The position numbers and the translations under genes are program-made. Positions 24,240-52,884 of a stretch of 64,000 nt of DNA are shown piece by piece. The notes beneath the pieces were generated by a model. The model was not told the DNA's origin. It saw only the letters and a list, made by a program, of their open reading frames with translations, and did no database searches. The number at the start of each line of letters is the position of its first letter. Within the stretch, counting starts at the first letter, position 1. The DNA is from Syncephalis fuscata (taxonomy: Eukaryota; Zoopagomycota; Zoopagomycetes; Zoopagales; Piptocephalidaceae), in assembly GCA_025786725.1 (NCBI GenBank), contig JAHLTZ010000041.1, positions 62,001-126,000 on the forward strand, given 5' to 3'.

Positions 24240-26512
24240 GTTATGATAACATGACCAGACAACACACCACATGATTAAATAACATATTATGTGTAAACAT
24301 TTACAAAAATAATTTATGTTGGACAGCAATGCAATTACCAATAATAAACTGCTATTAAAATATGTCCAGTAAATACCTGTTAATTGTTTACATATAAACG
24401 ATAGCATAAACCGATAGCGACGTGTTAATAGTAAATTAGTATGAGGCTTTTAAAGCCATTATTAGCTATGCTTATTGTAGAATGATAACTTTAATCAATA
24501 TCAATAAAAACACCATACATTTAGTCTCACCGTATTTCTATTTCGTGGCCTATAAGTTATTCAAATGATTATATTTAAATTGTGATAATCAATTACAAAT
24601 AATAAGTAATTTGGTTATCAATAATAATAATAACCATTTAGCACATTGGTACCGTGTTGGAATAAATATTAGCGTGCATTAAAGGCTAACTTTATAGCAT
24701 AATGTCGAAATAAAATGTCGCTTAATCATATAGTGTAACTAGGTGATAAAAGGCAATGGAATATAGATTAAAAATAGTAATCATTTAATTAATAAAGCAT
24801 TGCTCAGATTACGTATAACTTTACGTATAATGAAGTAAATTGTCTGACATTTTGCACAAGTATGCGCATAGTCTATAGGTAGCTATTGGCAAAATATACC
24901 GTGATTGTATTGCATGATAGTGCAATGGTAGTGCTAATACGCTAATAAATGTACTAAAATAGCAGATTTTAGTCAGTTACGACTTACATAACTAAAATAC
25001 AGCAGAATGGCTACTGGATTCGAGTTCCCCATGCTTCGCTGTACCGATTGGTATAAGAAATGGAACGATGATTTTTGCAAAAAATGTTAGTCAAAAATGC
25101 AATTTACGCGTATTTAGTTAATGAAAAATGATTCAACTTTATAATCTTAAAACTTTAATGCAAGAATAAGGTTTGGTCCAAAGTAAATCCAAAGTGTTAT
25201 ACAGTACTAAACAAATATAATAAAAGGTGCTATGCAGAAATACCGATACATGGCGGCAGTTTATACCACAGATATACATATAACTGAGGTTTTGTTAACA
25301 ACTAAATACGCGTAAATTGCAATTTTGACTAACATTTTTTGCAAAAATCATCGTTCCATTTCTTATACCAATCGGTACAGCGAAGCATGGGGAACTCGAA
25401 TCCAGTAGTCATTCTGCTGTATTTTAGTTATGTAAGTCGTAACTGACTAAAATCTGCTATTTTAGTACATTTATTAACTTATTATTGCAGCCACTATACC
25501 ATCACGCAATACAGTTGCGGTATACTTTACCAATAGCTACCTGTATATCATATACATACTTGTGCAAAATATCATGTCATTTGATTCATTCTAGGTAAAG
25601 TTATACATATTATTATCAATATTTTACTGTGATTTAAAAATACGTAAATTGCATTTTTGACTAACATTTTTTGCAAAAATCATCGTTCCATTTCTTATAC
25701 CAATCGGTACAGCAAAGCATGTAAAACTCGAATCTAGTAGTCATTCTGCTGTATTTTAGTTGTACAGACCATGGTTGGCTAAAAACTGCTATTTTAGTAC
25801 ATTTATTAGCGTATTAGCACTACCATTGCACTATCATGCAATACAATCACGGTATATTTTGCCAATAGCTACCTATAGACTATGCGCATACTTGTGCAAA
25901 ATGTCAGACAATTTACTTCATTATACGTAAAGTTATACGTAATCTGAGCAATGCTTTATTAATTAAATGATTACTATTTTTAATCTATATTCCATTGCCT
26001 TTTATCACCTAGTTACACTATATGATTAAGCGACATTTTATTTCGACATTATGCTATAAAGTTAGCCTTTAATGCACGCTAATATTTATTCCAACACGGT
26101 ACCAATGTGCTAAATGGTTATTATTATTATTGATAACCAAATTACTTATTATTTGTAATTGATTATCACAATTTAAATATAATCATTTGAATAACTTATA
26201 GGCCACGAAATAGAAATACGGTGAGACTAAATGTATGGTGTTTTTATTGATATTGATTAAAGTTATCATTCTACAATAAGCATAGCTAATAATGGCTTTA
26301 AAAGCCTCATACTAATTTACTATTAACACGTCGCTATCGGTTTATGCTATCGTTTATATGTAAACAATTAACAGGTATTTACTGGACATATTTTAATAGC
26401 AGTTTATTATTGGTAATTGCATTGCTGTCCAACATAAATTATTTTTGTAAATGTTTACACATAATATGTTATTTAATCATGTGGTGTGTTGTCTGGTCAT
26501 ATCATTATAATA
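24240..26512. repeat. Large near-palindrome, about 880-bp arms
   Basis: The left arm (about 24240-25117) is repeated in reverse complement as the right arm (about 25635-26512). Long stretches match base for base: ACATGATTAAATAACATATT at about 24269-24288 has its exact complement at about 26463-26482, and GATGATTTTTGCAAAAAATG near 25069 reappears inverted near 25660. The inner 300 bp of an arm occurs a third time, inverted and more diverged, at about 25310-25610 inside the spacer. No coding frame is conserved. The structure could fold into a long hairpin if transcribed, or be a foldback element. Confidence 0.9.
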
Positions 26513-43326: not shown

Positions 43327-45631
43327 ATGTCTAATGAACGGACGGACACCAGGACGCCGTCCCCATTGCCTACATTTGTAGATGCTAGTGAGAGTCTAGA
43401 GACTGAGACTCATCCAGAGACCACGTATGATACTTTTAGTAAGCCGTATAGTGGTAATACGAATGTTGTAGCGGGTCCAAGTCATGAATTCGTTTTAGTC
43501 AATGATGACGACGAAGACGAAGAGAATGACGATAGCCGTACCCATACTCGGTCTTCGGTGCCTTCTACGTCATTTTCATCGGCTCAAGAGCAGTTGGGTA
43601 GTAGCAATGATAGCCAAATCAATGTAGACACTTCAATCGCTGGACTAGCAGCTATTCCAACCGATAATACATCTAATGGTCCATCTAATGCACCTAATAC
43701 AGTAGACCGGTCAGAAATACCGGCGTTTATTGATAGTCAGCAACAGCGTCTATTAAATCGAGAGTTAATTAATAGAGAAGTAACGCGAGAACTGGCATAT
43801 ATTGCGTCTAATCCATCATTGCAATATTTGCGTCGTTTGCCACCTGGTGCCATTGGAACACGAGTTAGTCCATCAACGTTTGATCCGATGCCGTTGTTGC
43901 GTTACATTTATCTACGTTATGTACTAAGCTTTCCACTATTCCGAGATGCTGGCCCATCATTTTGGCCACGTGTCCAGAAATTCCTAGATCAATTGGCGAC
44001 TAATGGCATTGGCAGTAGTCGAGAGGGCAACGAGAAGCGTAAACGACAGCAAATGATGAAGCGGATGAATCGACTACTTACGCTTTTCTTCTATTCGGGT
44101 TCAAAGCTAACTGAAGCACCGCCTATTGCTTTGTTAAGCGATTCAACTTCAATTGAAGGTAGTCACAGTGCAGGGAAAGAACCGGCTGTTACACCAGCAC
44201 TAGCACCATCAGCGGATGAAGAGTCAACTGTGCCGGATACTGATCGACAATCGTTGCATTCAGTCGATCTAAATGGCGAAGGGTCATCGGCTATTCAGGG
44301 TGAAGAACCTGCTCCAACTAGCCCAACTGCTCAATCTAACCCAACAGGACCAAGAGGCGTTAATGGTATTAATCTAAATGTAGTAACTGTCTATCCTGTG
44401 CGTAAATCAGGCAAATTACGTGACAGTACGCATGCTGTAAGTTATATTACAAATAAATGTATTTATAGATTGTTAATTTAAATAATATAAATAGGAATTT
44501 GTACTATCTGTTACTTTTGATGATGGTAATCAGTTGTTTGTGGCAAGACGATTCCATGATTTACGTCGATTACATAAACAGGTGTGTTATACGACCTTTA
44601 TTGTTAATTAACTAATTTAATTTAATTTATTAAATAATAGTTACGTCGAGCAATGCCATCACTTGAATTGCCATTCCCCCCACACAAGACACAGAATAGT
44701 GCAACACATCATGAGGTTTACTATCGTGAAAAGGATCGATTATTAATGCGGGCCCATTTACGTCGACTTATTGCCATTCAACCTGTGGCTCAAGCTAAGC
44801 TTTTCCAAGCCTTTCTTACCGATCAACCCATTGAGCTACAAGGTGCTGCACTATTAGATGCAGAGTGCCGAGTAGCTCGTGAATGGCAGCTTTACGAAGA
44901 ATCAATGCAAGCACAAGAAGAGTCAGAACGCTTGGCCAAGGAATATCAAGCAGATATGGCGAACTTGCGTAAACAAGTACTATCTGATGGTACTGTAAAT
45001 GAATTAAATGGCTATAATAGTATTAATATGTTTATTTAGGTGGACTACAAGAGCTTGTAAACACGATTAAACATGTTGACCATGTGGACAATCTACCGTC
45101 CTATTGTCAAGCTACCTTTAATTATCTTTGTATCAAGTAAGTATTGTATGGGTTGCATTAGCATCATTAACAACTGGTTATTAGTTTTGCTACTTCTCTT
45201 TATACCAATTTCTATAGTTCTGATGATTCACCGGCCAAATTGGCCTCTCTTAAACGCACCAATGGTATGATTCCGTTCCGCGCCTTACGTACCGTGTTGA
45301 AAATATCGAATCCGGCACGAATGGCCAAAGGTGTAACTGATTTGTTCTTGGCCCGTCCATTTGGACAGCGCAGTGTACTGCAACGGTGAGTTGTATTAAT
45401 ATCATCTAATTATTTAACTAATTGCTATGCATATTATTAATAGCATTATTGCCACCAATATCAATGACAGTCTCCGTGAATTAGAAACAGATATTGAGAA
45501 ACTAGAGCGTGAAATTGGTGATCTGGCCATTTGCCATAAGATTGAAAAGTACATTAATCATCCAAATACACAATATACAGACGATCATGGTAGGTATTAC
45601 ATATATTAATAAGTATACATAGCGATTAACG

Positions 45632-45666
<35 letters not shown>

Positions 45667-46831
45667 TACAGATATGTCGGATGACGAACTACTTATGCGA
45701 CTATTGCATGATAACTCAATTGCTCCACAGTTGCATCAAATTCAATTGGAACGAATCTGGCCTACCAATCAGCCAAATATACAGCCAAACCGTGTATTAT
45801 TGTACAGATTGCATAAATTATTGACTCTATATCTAAAGAAGCACGATAAAGAAGCAATGCTTAATGTTCTGTTTGAAGGCAGTACAAGTGATCTACTTAA
45901 AGATATTATAGCCGTGGTATATGGACCACTAGCCGAAGTATATAAAGCGGCTAATATTGGCGATTATATCATGGACATTGCGGCATTTATCAATGATCTT
46001 ATCAGTACAGTGGAGCACATGGATGAATGGCGAATGCGTAAGTTATAATTTATACCAAATTAAACACTAAACACCAGTTAATTATATTTATTATTAGATA
46101 ATACGGGCCGTAATCCACTTGAGCCATTTAGAGCGCTAGTGGATCGATATAAGAATAATATGTACCAGTTTCTACACCGACTCTATGCACGTGATCGCCA
46201 TGGTCTATTCGACAACATACTTAACTGGGCCGAGACTGTTATGCAGTTCCTTCGATCAGGCGGCGGCGCTATTGATTTACAAGCCGTGGTGGCTGAGACA
46301 ACGGTTACTGACGAGGACCGATTAATGCTGAAGGACGATTTAGCGCATCTAGCCAATTATCGAATTGAAGTCAAAGAGCGACATCGACGCAAGCTAAAGG
46401 CCCGTCTACAAGTCAATGTCAATGACTGGACCGAAGAGGATGTACAAGACATTCTTGATCAATTAGGCGTTGGTGCAGATGCCGATGATCTTATGGCCGA
46501 TGATCTTGATGAAGAGGATGAAATGAATGCTGCTATGCTTGAATGGCAACATCATTTAGAGGAAGAAGAGCAAGAAGAACATAGGATACGTCGTCATAGC
46601 GATAATACTGAAGATGGGCAAGGACAGCAGCATTTAGCAGAGTCTATGGCTAATCGGCGTGGACATGCTATTAATGAACCGCCTATTCCTCCACCACAGT
46701 TGAACATCATACCACAGATGGTCAATCCATTTGTACGTCAGTTACGTACTCATCTTGATGAACAATTGGTTCAAGTACTGCCACGTAATATTTCAGGCTC
46801 GGAATCTCATTTATCGTATGTAGTTAAATAA
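43327..46831 (+). CDS. PX/DUF3818 lipid-binding protein (Ypr097w/Lec1-like)
   Basis: Eight exons: 43327..44436, 44495..44581, 44641..44989, 45040..45136, 45218..45385, 45444..45589, 45672..46037, 46098..46831; 1018 residues, all phases consistent. After a disordered acidic N-terminus comes the PX-associated (PXB) region (PAFIDSQQQRLLNRELINRE, FPLFRDAGPSFWPRVQKFL). A PX domain follows (FVARRFHDLRRLHKQ, LPFPPHKT). Then comes the DUF3818 body (FRALRTVLKISNPARMAKG, FGQRSVLQR, EPFRALVDRYKNNMYQFLHR). This order matches yeast Ypr097w (Lec1), a PX protein tied to lipid-droplet and ergosterol distribution. The last exon may be spliced once more after 46816 (GTATGT) into a short tail; I kept the simple stop. 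Intron 6 contains (AC)n(AT)n repeats. Confidence 0.9.
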
Positions 46832-48373: not shown

Positions 48374-51075
48374 TCAAATTAAATGGAACCATATTTTATT
48401 ACTACAATTTTGCATAGTTGAGTAGGAACAACCAATTGCAAGCTTGTTGATAATATGCTGATACCATTGATTAAATGGTGAATAAGCCGAAGCATTGGCT
48501 GAAACTTGATGTATAAATGGGCTAAGCGACAATTGTCGAATGATCTTGCTTTTGTCGAATATATTTCTAAAGCTTGTCGAACTAACAGCTCAATTAAATT
48601 ATCAGTGCCAATGTTTTGAAAGAATTGGTTGTTCTATAGTTATAAATAGATACAACACATGCCATATGATTAACACATAGTTGGTTAATATACAATGCCA
48701 CTTACAACCTATTAATACGAGTTATTAACCATGCAAGACACATGCCATGTAATTAGTGTATAGTTCAGTGGTATGTGATGTCGCTTACAATCTAGTAATA
48801 CAAGTTATCAACCATGCACGGTACATGCCACACAATTAATATATAGCCGGTAATATGCAATGCCACTTACTATCTATTAATGCAAGTCATTACATGTATA
48901 CACAATGGATGCATATAATTAGTATATATTTGGTCAGTATGCAATAATACTTACTAGCTATTAATACGAGTTGTTAAACACACACAACGCATGTTATATG
49001 ATTAGTATATATTTGATCAGTATGCAAAGGCACTTACTACCTATTAATACAAGTTATTAAACACACAAGATACATGGAACATAATTAATATATATATATT
49101 TGATACTTAATGTCACTTACCACCTATTGTTACGCATTATTAATCACACGCAATGCATTTCATATGATTAGTGTAGAGTTAATTAATATGTAATGCTACT
49201 TACCACCTATTAATACAAATTATTAACCATACACAATGTGTGTCATATAATTACTGTATAGCTAGCTAATATGCAATTTTACTTACCCACTATCAATGCA
49301 AGTTATTAGCGCACATGGTACACGATATATGGTTAGTATATTGCAAGGTAGTATGCAATGATACTTACGAGCTATTATTGCAAATTATTACATGCACATA
49401 CACATAATGGATGCCATTTGCTTAGTATATATTTAGTTAATATGCATTGATACTTACGACCTAGTAATGCGAGTTATTACATGCACACACAGTGAATGTC
49501 ATATAATTAGTGTATAGCAAGGTAATATGTAATGACGCTTACAATCTATGGGTTATCAGCCACGCACAGTACATGTCATATGATTAATATATAGTTGTTT
49601 AGTATAAAATGACACTTACTAGCTATTATTACAAATTATTACATGCGCATACAGATAATAAATGCCATCCAATTAATATATATTTAGCTAATATGCAATG
49701 ATACTTACGACCTAGTAATGCGAGTTATTACATGCACACACAGTGAATGTCATATAATTAGTGTATAGCATGGTAATATGCAATGGCACTTACAATCTAG
49801 TAATACAAGTTATTAACCACAGAAGGTACATGCCATTTAATTAATATATAGTTGGTTAATATACAATGACACTTACCAGCTATTAATACAAATTATTACA
49901 TGCACATAAAGTGAGTCTCATATGATTAATATATAGTTAAGTAATATACAATGCCACTTACGAGCTATTAATATGAGTCATTAACGCACATGGTATGCAA
50001 TACATGATTAATATATATATATATATATATATAGCTAATATGCAATGCTACTTACGAGCTATTAATACAAGTTATCAACGCACATGATACGCGGTATATG
50101 GTTAGTATATTGTTAGTTAATATACAATGTCACTTACGACCTATTAATACAGTCATTACATAGGCACACACAATGCATGTCATATGATTAGTATATATCT
50201 AGTTAATATACAATGGCACTTACGAACTATTGATACAAGTTATTGAGTACACACGGTACATGTCATATGATTAATATATAGTTGTTTAGCATAAAATGAC
50301 ACTTACTAGCTATTATTACAAATTATTACATGCGCATACAGATAATAAATGCCATCCAATTAATATATATTTAGCTAATATGCAATGATACTTACTACCT
50401 ATTAACACGAGTTATTACATGCAAATACAGTGAATGCCATATGATTAGTGTATAGCATGATAATATGCCATGGCACTTACAACCTAGTAATACAAGTTAT
50501 TAACCACAGAAGGTACATGCCATTTAATTAATATATAGTCGGTTAATATACAATGACACTTACTGACTATTAATGCAATGCATTACATGTACATACACAG
50601 TGAATGTCATATGATTAGTATATATTTAGTTAATATGTGATGTCGCTTACAAACTAGTAATATAAATTATTAACCACATAAGGTACATGCCATATAATTA
50701 ATATATAGCCGGTTAATATGCAATGCCACTTACCAGCTATTAATACAAGTCAGTATAGGCACATACACAGTGCATATCATATAATTAGTGTATAATTAGA
50801 TAATATGCAATGCCACTTACGAGCTATTGATATGAGTTGTTAAGCACATACGATCATTAGCGTGTAAGTAATGCATGGTTAATCAATATATAAAAGCACT
50901 TACGATCTAATAATAGTAATTTAATAATACAAACAGTATCCAATTAGCCAAGTATGTAATTATTGTAGTTGCAACATACCACGACGGGTTAAAGTTGGAC
51001 GGTCAGCATCCGCCACGGCTGTAGTGGCCATAAGAGCCATGACAATAGTGCAAATGCGGCAATAGAAAGCTTCAT
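48374..51075 (-). CDS. Secreted micro-exon gene: 27 single-codon exons
   Basis: Exon 1 is complement(50980..51075): ATG, KLSIAAFALL, then (one base missing near 51041) MALMATTAVADADRPTLTRR, a signal peptide ending in a dibasic site. Donor G|GTATGT. Then come 27 three-nucleotide exons, each between TAG and GTAAG. Lower coordinate and triplet: 50904 ATC; 50821 CTC; 50734 CTG; 50651 TTT; 50564 TCA; 50481 GTT; 50396 GTA; 50307 CTA; 50224 TTC; 50138 GTC; 50056 CTC; 49962 CTC; 49877 CTG; 49794 ATT; 49709 GTC; 49620 CTA; 49543 ATT; 49458 GTC; 49369 CTC; 49287 TGG; 49204 GTG; 49121 GTG; 49038 GTA; 48955 CTA; 48871 ATA; 48789 ATT; 48706 GTT. Exon 1 sets phase 1, giving DPPVFSCTIRPPP followed by DCPNCPLGGGTNNC (four Cys). 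The end is open: acceptor TATAG at 48634 gives an immediate TAA, while acceptor GAG at 48589 continues in frame to TGA 48374-48376 (SLSPFIHQVSANAS, total about 130 residues). Splicing is inferred from sites only. Confidence 0.6.
48634..50979 (-). repeat. Tandem array of about 83-bp intron/micro-exon units
   Basis: The plus strand shows 27 units. Each contains CACTTAC (or TACTTAC, CGCTTAC), three variable bases, CTATTAATAC-like sequence, a GTTATTA stretch, a GCACAC-type stretch, then ATATGATTAGTATATAG and TTAATATGCAATG. Intervals between the triplets are 74-91 bp, mostly 79-86. Unit divergence varies: some neighbours differ at many positions, whereas blocks 49606-49880 and 50291-50566 are nearly identical, showing a multi-unit duplication. 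One unit carries an (AT)n run (about 50008-50033). Confidence 0.92.
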
Positions 51076-52884
51076 GTTGATATTGAATTGTTAAAGCAAA
51101 CAAGTAAAGTAGACGATAAAGTGTAGTAGTATGAAGTAGATGGTAGTGAGTATTTGGTGGAAACTGGAGTGCGATGCTGATACAGCTAGTTAGATGTGTA
51201 TATTCGTGGGCTATTTAAGTCTATGATTATCCTAAGACATCAGTATGCTATATTTCATGGACTATACCATTGATGTACAGTGTGAACCAATAACAGCACA
51301 TCCACATGGTAGCTTGAAGCACGATTATACTGGTATATTGGTGGTATGCCAGTGTACAGTAAGGTTCTTACTTTAGCCTGTTTGGCATTTACACGAATGA
51401 TGTGGCAATATTGACATAATCTATAAGTTTTAAAGAAACAACTGAGATGTATTCATGTGTTTCTGCTATTATTTTTGCCAGCAATTTTAATATCTAATAA
51501 GCATATACATCCCAAACGACGTAGAAAATCAATACAGCAACAACGTTATTGTATTAGACCTTTGGTTATTTACAGGTACTTACTGTGGTGCATAAACTGG
51601 TTATATTCTTTGAGCTATGAAAGCATATTGATTGGTTCACATATGCGTTTAACATTGCAGCTTGACTACAGAAATGAAAGGTTTATTTTTAGCAAAACAC
51701 TACCAAATACTAATGCAGGTTCTACTATTGATCAGGAATTATTTTTATTGCTTACTGCCTGTTAATCATATGCATTTTTGATAATGAATCATTGCTTTTT
51801 ATTACCAGTATCGTTTATTTCTCAACACCAAAGCAACGTAAACTGACCAAATGACATGTAGCTCTATATAAAGACATTGGGCTATGTCTATCAGGCTGCC
51901 TCAATCAGATACAATCAATGCTGAGTGTACAGCAGCAGTTCATGGCATGTCAATCAGTACTCTCCTGTTGTGTAGATGATTCATACAGTAATGACTTGAT
52001 TAAAATAACAGGTTTGCAATTTGAAGTCTGCGTTATGTGTTACACACCCAGGTCATGTTTTTACGGCCCCAATTTAATAAAAATAATAATTGAGCAGATT
52101 ATAGCTATTTCAGCATACTATTACTAGTCGTACCACTTTCCAGTCACTTTTCTGCTATAGCTATGTATATTAAATATATTTGCTGAGTAACATGGAAATA
52201 AGCAATATTCAATAAAATTCAGTTGTTTATTCACTGTCATATTGTATACAACCATATTTACGATTAAAAACTTATAAAAAGTATTTATAATAAATAGCTG
52301 ATCATTATACTTACTGCTTGTTATTGGTACAGCATGTATGCCTATTGCTCTGTATGTGTCTGCTTATAATTGTCTATTTGCTATTACAATGTATCTCATA
52401 TATATTACTTGCTAATGTAACTTTAGTAGAATAACTTTTATTAATAAACATTGGCCCGATATATAGTATTATAATATATAGCCTATTCTCTACTTGCTTT
52501 AAATATTTTTACCCATTATTTATTTTAAACAATTAAAAACATCGTTCAAACTAAATAGATTGTTTGTATAAATTAAATCAAACGGCAAAATAACTATACA
52601 TTTGAATGATAATTAGCTATGTGAATGCAGTACTGTTAGCCATCGTCATATATTTATCATACTGTATACATTTATTTTTGATTGTAAATATCATTATATT
52701 ATTAAATTTGCACGGTATTGCGTTATTACTATTTGCACTGCCTTTATTCATTGTTTATTTCATTACTATACCAATCTGTTTTCTTTTGAGCTTGACATTT
52801 CTATTAATGCTACATTGTTTAACTTGGATACCACAAAGTCATAGCTAACTGCCATTAATAACCAACCCAATAAATACTTTTAAT
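51076..52884. other. Upstream region of the micro-exon gene, AT-rich
   Basis: A TTAAATAG box (minus strand, about 51211-51218) lies some 140 bp above the start. Plus-strand frames at 51457-51765, 51918-52127 and 52606-52848 (very hydrophobic, 80 codons) have no domain or splice support and are not called. Confidence 0.45.

Follow-up and report, generated by a model that had tools for sequence, protein, structure and literature searches.

Probable single-codon exon arrays in a large family of predicted secreted-peptide genes of the fungus Syncephalis fuscata

A minus-strand locus at positions 48374-51075 of a 64,000-nt stretch of Syncephalis fuscata DNA (contig JAHLTZ010000041.1; the whole stretch is referred to here as the window) contains splice-site motifs that repeatedly face each other across three bases. 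When this interval was scanned for [ACT]AG-N(k)-GTA[AT]G[TC], with k ranging from 0 to 30, there were 27 matches with k = 3, one with k = 19 and none at the other 29 values of k, which bears out the 27 tandem units of exactly three bases described in a first-pass annotation. Comparison with paralogs elsewhere in the genome (28.95 Mb in 299 contigs) makes it highly probable that the locus is a frame-broken member of a large family of secreted-peptide genes, in which the mature peptide is encoded by an array of single-codon exons. The species belongs to the Zoopagales, family Piptocephalidaceae, and the genus Syncephalis has been described as mycoparasitic, in passages that do not name S. fuscata (PMC6784888, PMC10386755).

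All 27 units carry GTAAGT or GTAAGC 3 nt past the 3′ splice site, including one with a weak CCATAG acceptor. The distance from unit to unit is 77-94 bp, and Tandem Repeats Finder (TRF) reports a tandem repeat of period 83 at 48658-50832. The first-pass annotation had placed a signal-peptide exon ahead of the array, and this exon is indeed present (Table 1), albeit with a broken frame in the window copy; its donor is GTATGT, preceded by ...CGTCGTG. At the other end, the terminal exon starts at 48633, right after the acceptor ATAACTATAG, and contains AATAAA at 48395-48400; cleavage probably takes place near 48381. Homology in two loci that look like retrocopies ends at this putative cleavage position and is followed by A6. 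Joined in order and read in phase 1, the micro-exons encode GDPPVFSCTIRPPPDCPNCPLGGGTNNC, with a stop directly after in the terminal exon: the GT of the last micro-exon finishes the final cysteine codon, and its remaining T together with the AA of the terminal exon forms the stop.

Table 1. Coordinates of the array gene, counted from the first base of the window
Feature	Position	Strand	Basis
TATA-like element TTAAATAG	51211..51218	minus	sequence; promoter motif and upstream homology common to fetched array loci
Exon 1, predicted signal peptide and Kex2-like Arg-Arg (RR) site, frame-broken here	50980..51075	minus	sequence, paralog comparison
27 predicted 3-nt exons with ~80-nt GTAAGT/GTAAGC...AG introns; phase 1 decode DPPVFSCTIRPPPDCPNCPLGGGTNNC	48706..50906	minus	scan, TRF, exons joined
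First predicted single-codon exon (ATC)	50904..50906	minus	scan
Last predicted single-codon exon (GTT)	48706..48708	minus	sequence and scan
Predicted terminal exon: immediate TAA stop, then conserved 3′ untranslated region (UTR)	48381..48633	minus	sequence, paralog conservation

What had been presented as a single locus with a run of 3-nt exons is a real array that turns out to have many relatives. A search with the window exon 1 returned at least 40 matches including itself (the best 40 of 221 first-look candidates were scored), and a search with P0122, the protein of an intronless gene, returned at least 150 (the best 150 of 313 candidates); both counts are lower bounds, since the best candidates alone were scored. 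Among these 150 matches, 77 have an open frame of 39-43 aa, a length that is only a rough guide to array type, as L068, with a 90-aa frame, is an array gene. The layout common to the family is a signal-peptide exon, usually ending in RR, followed by an array and a terminal exon. A strict scan of 20 fetched paralog loci found a cluster of 10-43 three-base units in 18 of them and none in L042 and L046. Exon 1 is intact in 17 of the 20, all of which display an MKLSI-like signal sequence and RR, as do most intronless members; RR is missing from L063 and L070. The latter (C2:520100-523900), chosen for its array, has a family-like signal peptide ending in AAAHV.

The same architecture can be counted across the genome from its splice sites. 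The motif ATTAATAG-NNN-GTAAGT occurs 1,727 times (807 + 920), compared with 0 occurrences of a reversed control, and freeing the spacer between ATTAATAG and GTAAGT to any length from 0 to 30 raises this only to 1,818, with 35 for the control. Because 137 of the 390 modelled 3-nt exons described below fit the strict motif, the genome may be extrapolated to hold ~4,900 three-nt exons, a rough figure in that the sampled loci were chosen largely for the likeness of their exon 1 and parts of the assembly may be duplicated. An independent check on exon length comes from a second acceptor type, TTAATATTAG: in 45 of 45 places across the genome it is separated from GTAAGT by exactly 6 nt (0-30 allowed; control, 5). 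Compared with the 3-nt class, the AG of this 6-nt class is shifted upstream by 3 nt, and the distance from AATATTA to the donor is the same.

Some family members reside within a few kb of contig ends (C236:180381-180587, on a contig of 180743 bp; C267:601-769; C158:1068-1220; C68:2242-2389), which may reflect either a subtelomeric location or breaks in the assembly. There are also arrays with mostly matching exon strings, some inverted, that occur in pairs tens of kb apart (C1:475-478 kb and 531-534 kb; C2:226 and 245 kb; C2:520 and 537 kb), and these are either recent duplications or assembly artefacts.

Exon lengths were modelled by dynamic programming on splice-site weight matrices, giving equal weight to every internal exon length from 1 to 30 nt and preference to introns of 62-96 nt. 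The training set of the matrices consisted of 3-nt units, from which sites were learned and lengths were not, and the independence of the outcome from those units is therefore incomplete. Totals refer to 15 loci, setting aside L042 (nearly empty), L044, L045 and L048 (near copies of L043) and L053 (no terminal marker and no model). Of 408 modelled internal exons, 390 are 3 nt long and 13 are 6 nt; the remainder comprise two of 2 nt, one of 7 nt and two of 10 nt, both of the last in L054, where an alternative donor (GTAATT) would leave 3 nt. The core length is divisible by three in 11 of the 15 loci, and 8 have their last acceptor where it usually lies in the family. Arrays with an intact exon 1 include those of L054 (49 exons), L056 (21) and L058 (13). 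An earlier model that permitted exons of 1-150 nt had likewise given 3 nt for 246 of 271 exons; another 14 came out at 78-86 nt because units with weak sites were fused.

Exon 1 of intact paralogs stops one base into a codon (94 or 97 nt from the ATG), and each subsequent codon should therefore consist of the last base of one micro-exon and the first two of the next. The one-residue-per-exon peptide envisaged in the first-pass annotation must be amended to this extent: joining in order is backed by the logic of the paralog sequences, but the codons straddle the junctions. The bases of micro-exons that are never joined should be independent of one another, and so coherence that is lost on shuffling argues that they are joined. 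Exon order was permuted 5,000 times within arrays (24 runs, 323 exons, 299 junction codons). In phase 1 there are 41 cysteine codons, compared with 21.8 ± 3.5 expected, and a single stop (near the array end in L058), compared with 10.8 ± 2.6; neither value was matched in any shuffle. With related loci dropped (12 loci, 258 codons), the counts are 36 versus 18.9 for cysteine (0 of 5,000 shuffles) and 1 versus 9.7 for stops (p = 0.0002), and restricting the test to unique exon pairs gave much the same outcome. The phase 2 control is flat (cysteine, 12 versus 12.6; stops, 26 versus 24.1). The middle base of the exon, which is the wobble position in phase 1, is T or C in 318 of 390 exons.

The other two phases were considered as reading frames in their own right. 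Phase 0 would turn the window array into 27 mostly hydrophobic residues, a would-be membrane helix, and was ruled out by the phase 1 end of exon 1 and by the alignment of L054 described next, which scores 12 in phase 0 and 132 in phase 1. Phase 2 was rejected for its 30 stops in 325 codons.

One array closely matches an uninterrupted open reading frame (ORF). The peptide decoded from 48 exons of L054 hits a single place, C79:328078-328179, with 67% identity over residues 12-46 (E = 4.1e-5). This place is L069, a family member that has the signal peptide and RR and whose frame is uninterrupted. Within a 164-bp gap, L054 has an additional unit, TGG with a GC donor (GC-AG), and when this is included the decode contains CTYSECMEKCKTYC, identical to L069 for 14 residues in a row. 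The protein score of 132 compares with a mean of 25.6 and a maximum of 65 in 5,000 exon shuffles, and with 13 in phase 2; the DNA score is 73, against a maximum of 34 in 2,000 shuffles. About 35 codons align, and the N-terminal part is not alignable. When 15 decoded arrays were set against 15 compact peptides, the second-ranking distinct pair was L047 and L063, which scores 54 against a shuffle maximum of 40 (5,000 shuffles; uncorrected for the choice of pair). Single-codon exons are thus very probably joined in order into small, often cysteine-rich secreted peptides.

These results bear on two other views of what happens to the three-base units. The array might be a satellite within one large intron, such that exon 1 is joined straight to the terminal exon and the AG-NNN-GT elements serve as recursive points or decoys whose bases are never kept. 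The units are, after all, tandem repeats, and their acceptors and donors are closely juxtaposed, as at recursive splice sites. However, the cysteine enrichment and stop avoidance that disappear on shuffling and are absent in phase 2, the match between the L054 decode and an uninterrupted ORF, and the coding core kept between exon 1 and terminal exon in intronless members all make this extremely unlikely. The second view, which is compatible with in-order joining, is that 3-nt exons are often skipped and each gene yields a mixture of peptides, along the lines suggested for the micro-exon genes of helminths. Nearly all exons being 3 or 6 nt, the frame would survive skipping, and some units have weak sites, such as the GC donor of L054 and the CCATAG acceptor in the window. 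Nonetheless, the aligned part of L054 and L069 corresponds to in-order inclusion, even of the GC-AG unit, and the cysteine patterning suggests one main product, so that widespread skipping seems somewhat unlikely.

Besides L069, the loci L046, L060-L064 and L067 also encode the family signal peptide and terminal region around a coding core without introns. Three of these, L046, L063 and L064, lack the promoter shared by the fetched array genes: their homology begins downstream of where the TATA element would lie, ~50-105 nt before the ATG. In L046 and L063 it extends to one and the same poly(A) position, after which A6 follows, and in L064 it ends nearby without such a tract. Flanking direct repeats, identified by eye with no test against chance, match at 12 of 14 positions in L063 and 15 of 16 in L064, and none is clear in L046. 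Lacking introns and a promoter and having transcript-like boundaries, these three loci look like reverse-transcribed copies. A segment upstream of L046 (168-321) is ~81% identical to L057:6475-6630, and is possibly a dispersed repeat.

A tree was built from 18 array and 8 compact loci, setting aside L053 and L056 for lack of the marker and leaving the root unspecified. In it, L046 falls with eight array genes on a starred branch (100/96), and the window copy clusters with L040 and L041 with weak support. Starred branches force at least two changes between array and compact states, and parsimony needs four. The direction was probably from array to intronless gene, because the reverse would require dozens of introns to be inserted exactly three bases apart. 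The intronless members also invite the idea that the 80-bp segments are removed from DNA, by programmed elimination, rather than from RNA, and the contiguous genomic coding core of L069, with its promoter kept, would suit such a process. But the segments bear spliceosomal signals (GTAAGT, and YTAAY before AG), and the three contiguous copies have transcript-like ends and no promoter; programmed elimination of such segments is not known in fungi, and the idea is scarcely credible.

Adjacent introns within an array are 74.9% identical in their interior, whereas identity at the three bases of the exon is 27, 40 and 26% (242 pairs, 12 loci). A similar disparity exists between genes: in 11 paralog pairs, introns are 83-95% identical, micro-exons 39-79% and exon 1 87-100%, where only stretches with local alignment of at least 75% were compared, a filter that raises the intron figure and was applied to introns and exons alike. 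That micro-exons diverge faster than the introns flanking them suggests diversifying selection on the peptide, homogenization of the introns, or both.

Several observations weigh against the family as reconstructed here. The window exon 1 differs by one base in length from its paralogs, such that the ATG frame hits a stop within the exon and the frame leading into RR is out of register with MKLS, which may be a sequencing error or the mark of a pseudogene. L042 has an exon 1 without an ATG and an array that is nearly gone. Genome searches found no intronless counterpart for the decoded peptides of the window or of L055, although with short queries that yielded no first-look candidates this is weak evidence. 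In the key alignment, L069 was already known when the GC-AG unit of L054 was added. Four loci, L041, L052, L054 and L059, have a core whose length is not divisible by three and contain 2-, 7- or 10-nt exons, and of these L054 alone was corrected by hand; 7 of the 15 models chose a different last acceptor, leaving the model end unsure; and several arrays are interrupted by gaps of about 140-500 bp. The shuffle test also gave results that were not predicted, namely depletion of serine (15 versus 37.9) and enrichment of proline (29 versus 18.9), and phase 0 contains 0 stops in 325 codons where 3.3 are expected, a phase that shuffling cannot judge. Finally, L060, L061, L062, L067 and L069 retain the TATA region or promoter and are not simple retrocopies; recombination of cDNA with a genomic copy would explain them better.

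Some of these defects raise the question of whether the arrays are decaying pseudogenes or relics, the intronless members alone being functional. Broken frames in exon 1 are found in L043 and L048 as well as in the window, and L042 has hardly any array left. Yet stops are avoided and cysteine is enriched across the arrays, most of the fetched paralogs have an intact exon 1, and micro-exons that differ far more than the adjoining introns point to diversifying selection more than to neutral decay. General decay is very unlikely.

The proposed gene would begin with an exon 1 that provides the signal peptide and usually an RR pro-site. About 10 to 49 exons, each 3 nt long or in some cases 6 nt, would encode the mature peptide between ~80-nt spliceosomal introns that are alike one another, and a terminal exon would contribute the 3′ UTR as well as the stop of many members. 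YTAAY is present in the final 30 nt of 314 of 401 introns and starts 13 nt before the exon in 167 of those 314. Introns of ~80 nt with GTAAGT and YTAAY fit intron definition, by which they would be removed, probably in 5′ to 3′ order, with each tiny exon being attached to the lengthening exon upstream of it before the following donor comes into play. Removal is probably sequential because two spliceosomes can hardly flank three bases at once. The process would resemble recursive splicing, except that every step leaves three bases behind. For a 1-nt exon, PMC4674806 suggests that intron definition works together with recursive splicing, and splicing of this type is probably repeated dozens of times in S. 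fuscata. The resulting peptide would be secreted and then probably cut after RR, and may act against the host fungus. Arrays would lengthen when ~83-bp units are duplicated and shorten when they are lost, each event changing the peptide by one residue with the frame kept, and spliced mRNAs would sometimes be reverse-transcribed to give rise to the intronless copies.

Series of small exons with lengths divisible by three also characterize the micro-exon genes (MEGs) of schistosomes and tapeworms, in which exons are mostly 6-36 nt long and the products are secreted and variable. In S. fuscata, by contrast, the mature part consists wholly of 3-nt exons (some 6-nt), the ~80-nt introns are tandem copies, and the host genome is fungal. 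The definition that appears in a portion of PMC7653826 (at least seven exons, at least half of them shorter than 70 nt and divisible by three, in runs of at least four) describes the predicted architecture, with its 27 consecutive 3-nt exons in the window and 403 of 408 modelled exons of 3 or 6 nt. The same portion states that exon skipping in MEGs can yield proteins differing by one amino acid (PMC7653826).

The bicycle genes of aphids, which are fast-evolving putative effectors, likewise have many unusually small internal exons nearly all in one phase. Their exons are longer than those of the 3-nt arrays; S. fuscata differs in having exons of near-constant one-codon length, in phase 1, and tandem-repeat introns. 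An extract of PMC9168663 gives bicycle genes an average of ~17 exons, almost all internal exons in phase 2, and one gene with >100 microexons, whereas both the end of exon 1 and the codon signal are phase 1 in the present family. At the ratchet points of recursive splicing in Drosophila and vertebrates, an acceptor abuts a donor within an intronic stretch, according to excerpts of PMC8605326 and PMC4674806. Such points leave zero bases, whereas the S. fuscata units leave three coding bases per step, and AG and GT are separated by three nt in 27 of 27 window units. Exons of 1 to 3 nt that are included by the spliceosome are described in sections of PMC4674806 and PMC8831610 for Arabidopsis APC11 and plant VPS55, and a further case is reported for RPS24. 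Those exons are isolated, whereas tens in a row appear to encode a whole peptide in S. fuscata. Intron loss mediated by reverse transcriptase around a microexon, as deduced in a section of PMC8831610, is paralleled by the loss proposed for this family.

With a putative signal peptide, a candidate RR site and a short, often cysteine-rich tail, the predicted products resemble Kex2-processed fungal peptides. Cysteine-rich secreted peptides of this kind are a known class in fungi. None of 10 family members scanned against Pfam reached the cut-off, the best sub-threshold match being Gloverin (E = 0.051). A protein search with intronless members, of limited sensitivity, gave 14 matches, all from S. 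fuscata. When 7 of 14 public S. fuscata proteins (found by signal peptide) were compared with the 15 decoded arrays, no pair exceeded a score of 54, the value for P0121, itself identical with the intronless L063. Judged by eye, P0131 represents the array gene L050 in a model that runs into the first intronic unit, and P0130 and P0132 resemble a translated array intron. Among the titles and abstract openings listed by searches of the open-licence literature in PubMed Central, there was no report of such arrays or of Syncephalis micro-exons.

Elsewhere in the window, a single-frame ORF of 102 aa lies on the plus strand just upstream of the array gene (51457-51765). ORFs at 43327-46831 match PX-associated (PXB) and DUF3818 domains and probably belong to one fungal PX-domain gene in several exons, and a tandem repeat of period 332 (1.9 copies) is found at 25311-25938.

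Exons of 3 nt are reported elsewhere as isolated cases, whereas in this large gene family dozens in a row apparently encode the mature part of a protein in its entirety. Such an arrangement, once confirmed, would set a new limit for intron definition and imply great splicing fidelity, with dozens of introns to be removed for a peptide of 10-50 residues. It would also offer a tractable test of sequential 5′-to-3′ splicing, and would mean that a mycoparasite peptide repertoire is missed or mistranslated by present gene models. Codon coherence across introns, assessed by exon shuffling, provides a means of finding such genes in other genomes from sequence alone. More tentatively, and with a probability that we place a little short of even, S. 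fuscata may practise one-residue-per-exon coding on the scale of its genome, with ~5,000 three-nt exons, each ~83-bp intron-plus-codon cassette being an evolvable module and reverse transcription exporting peptides to intronless genes. Were this so, cassette duplication, deletion and fast exon substitution would edit peptides residue by residue while frame and intron likeness are kept, and the family would constitute a peptide-diversifying system that acts through splicing.

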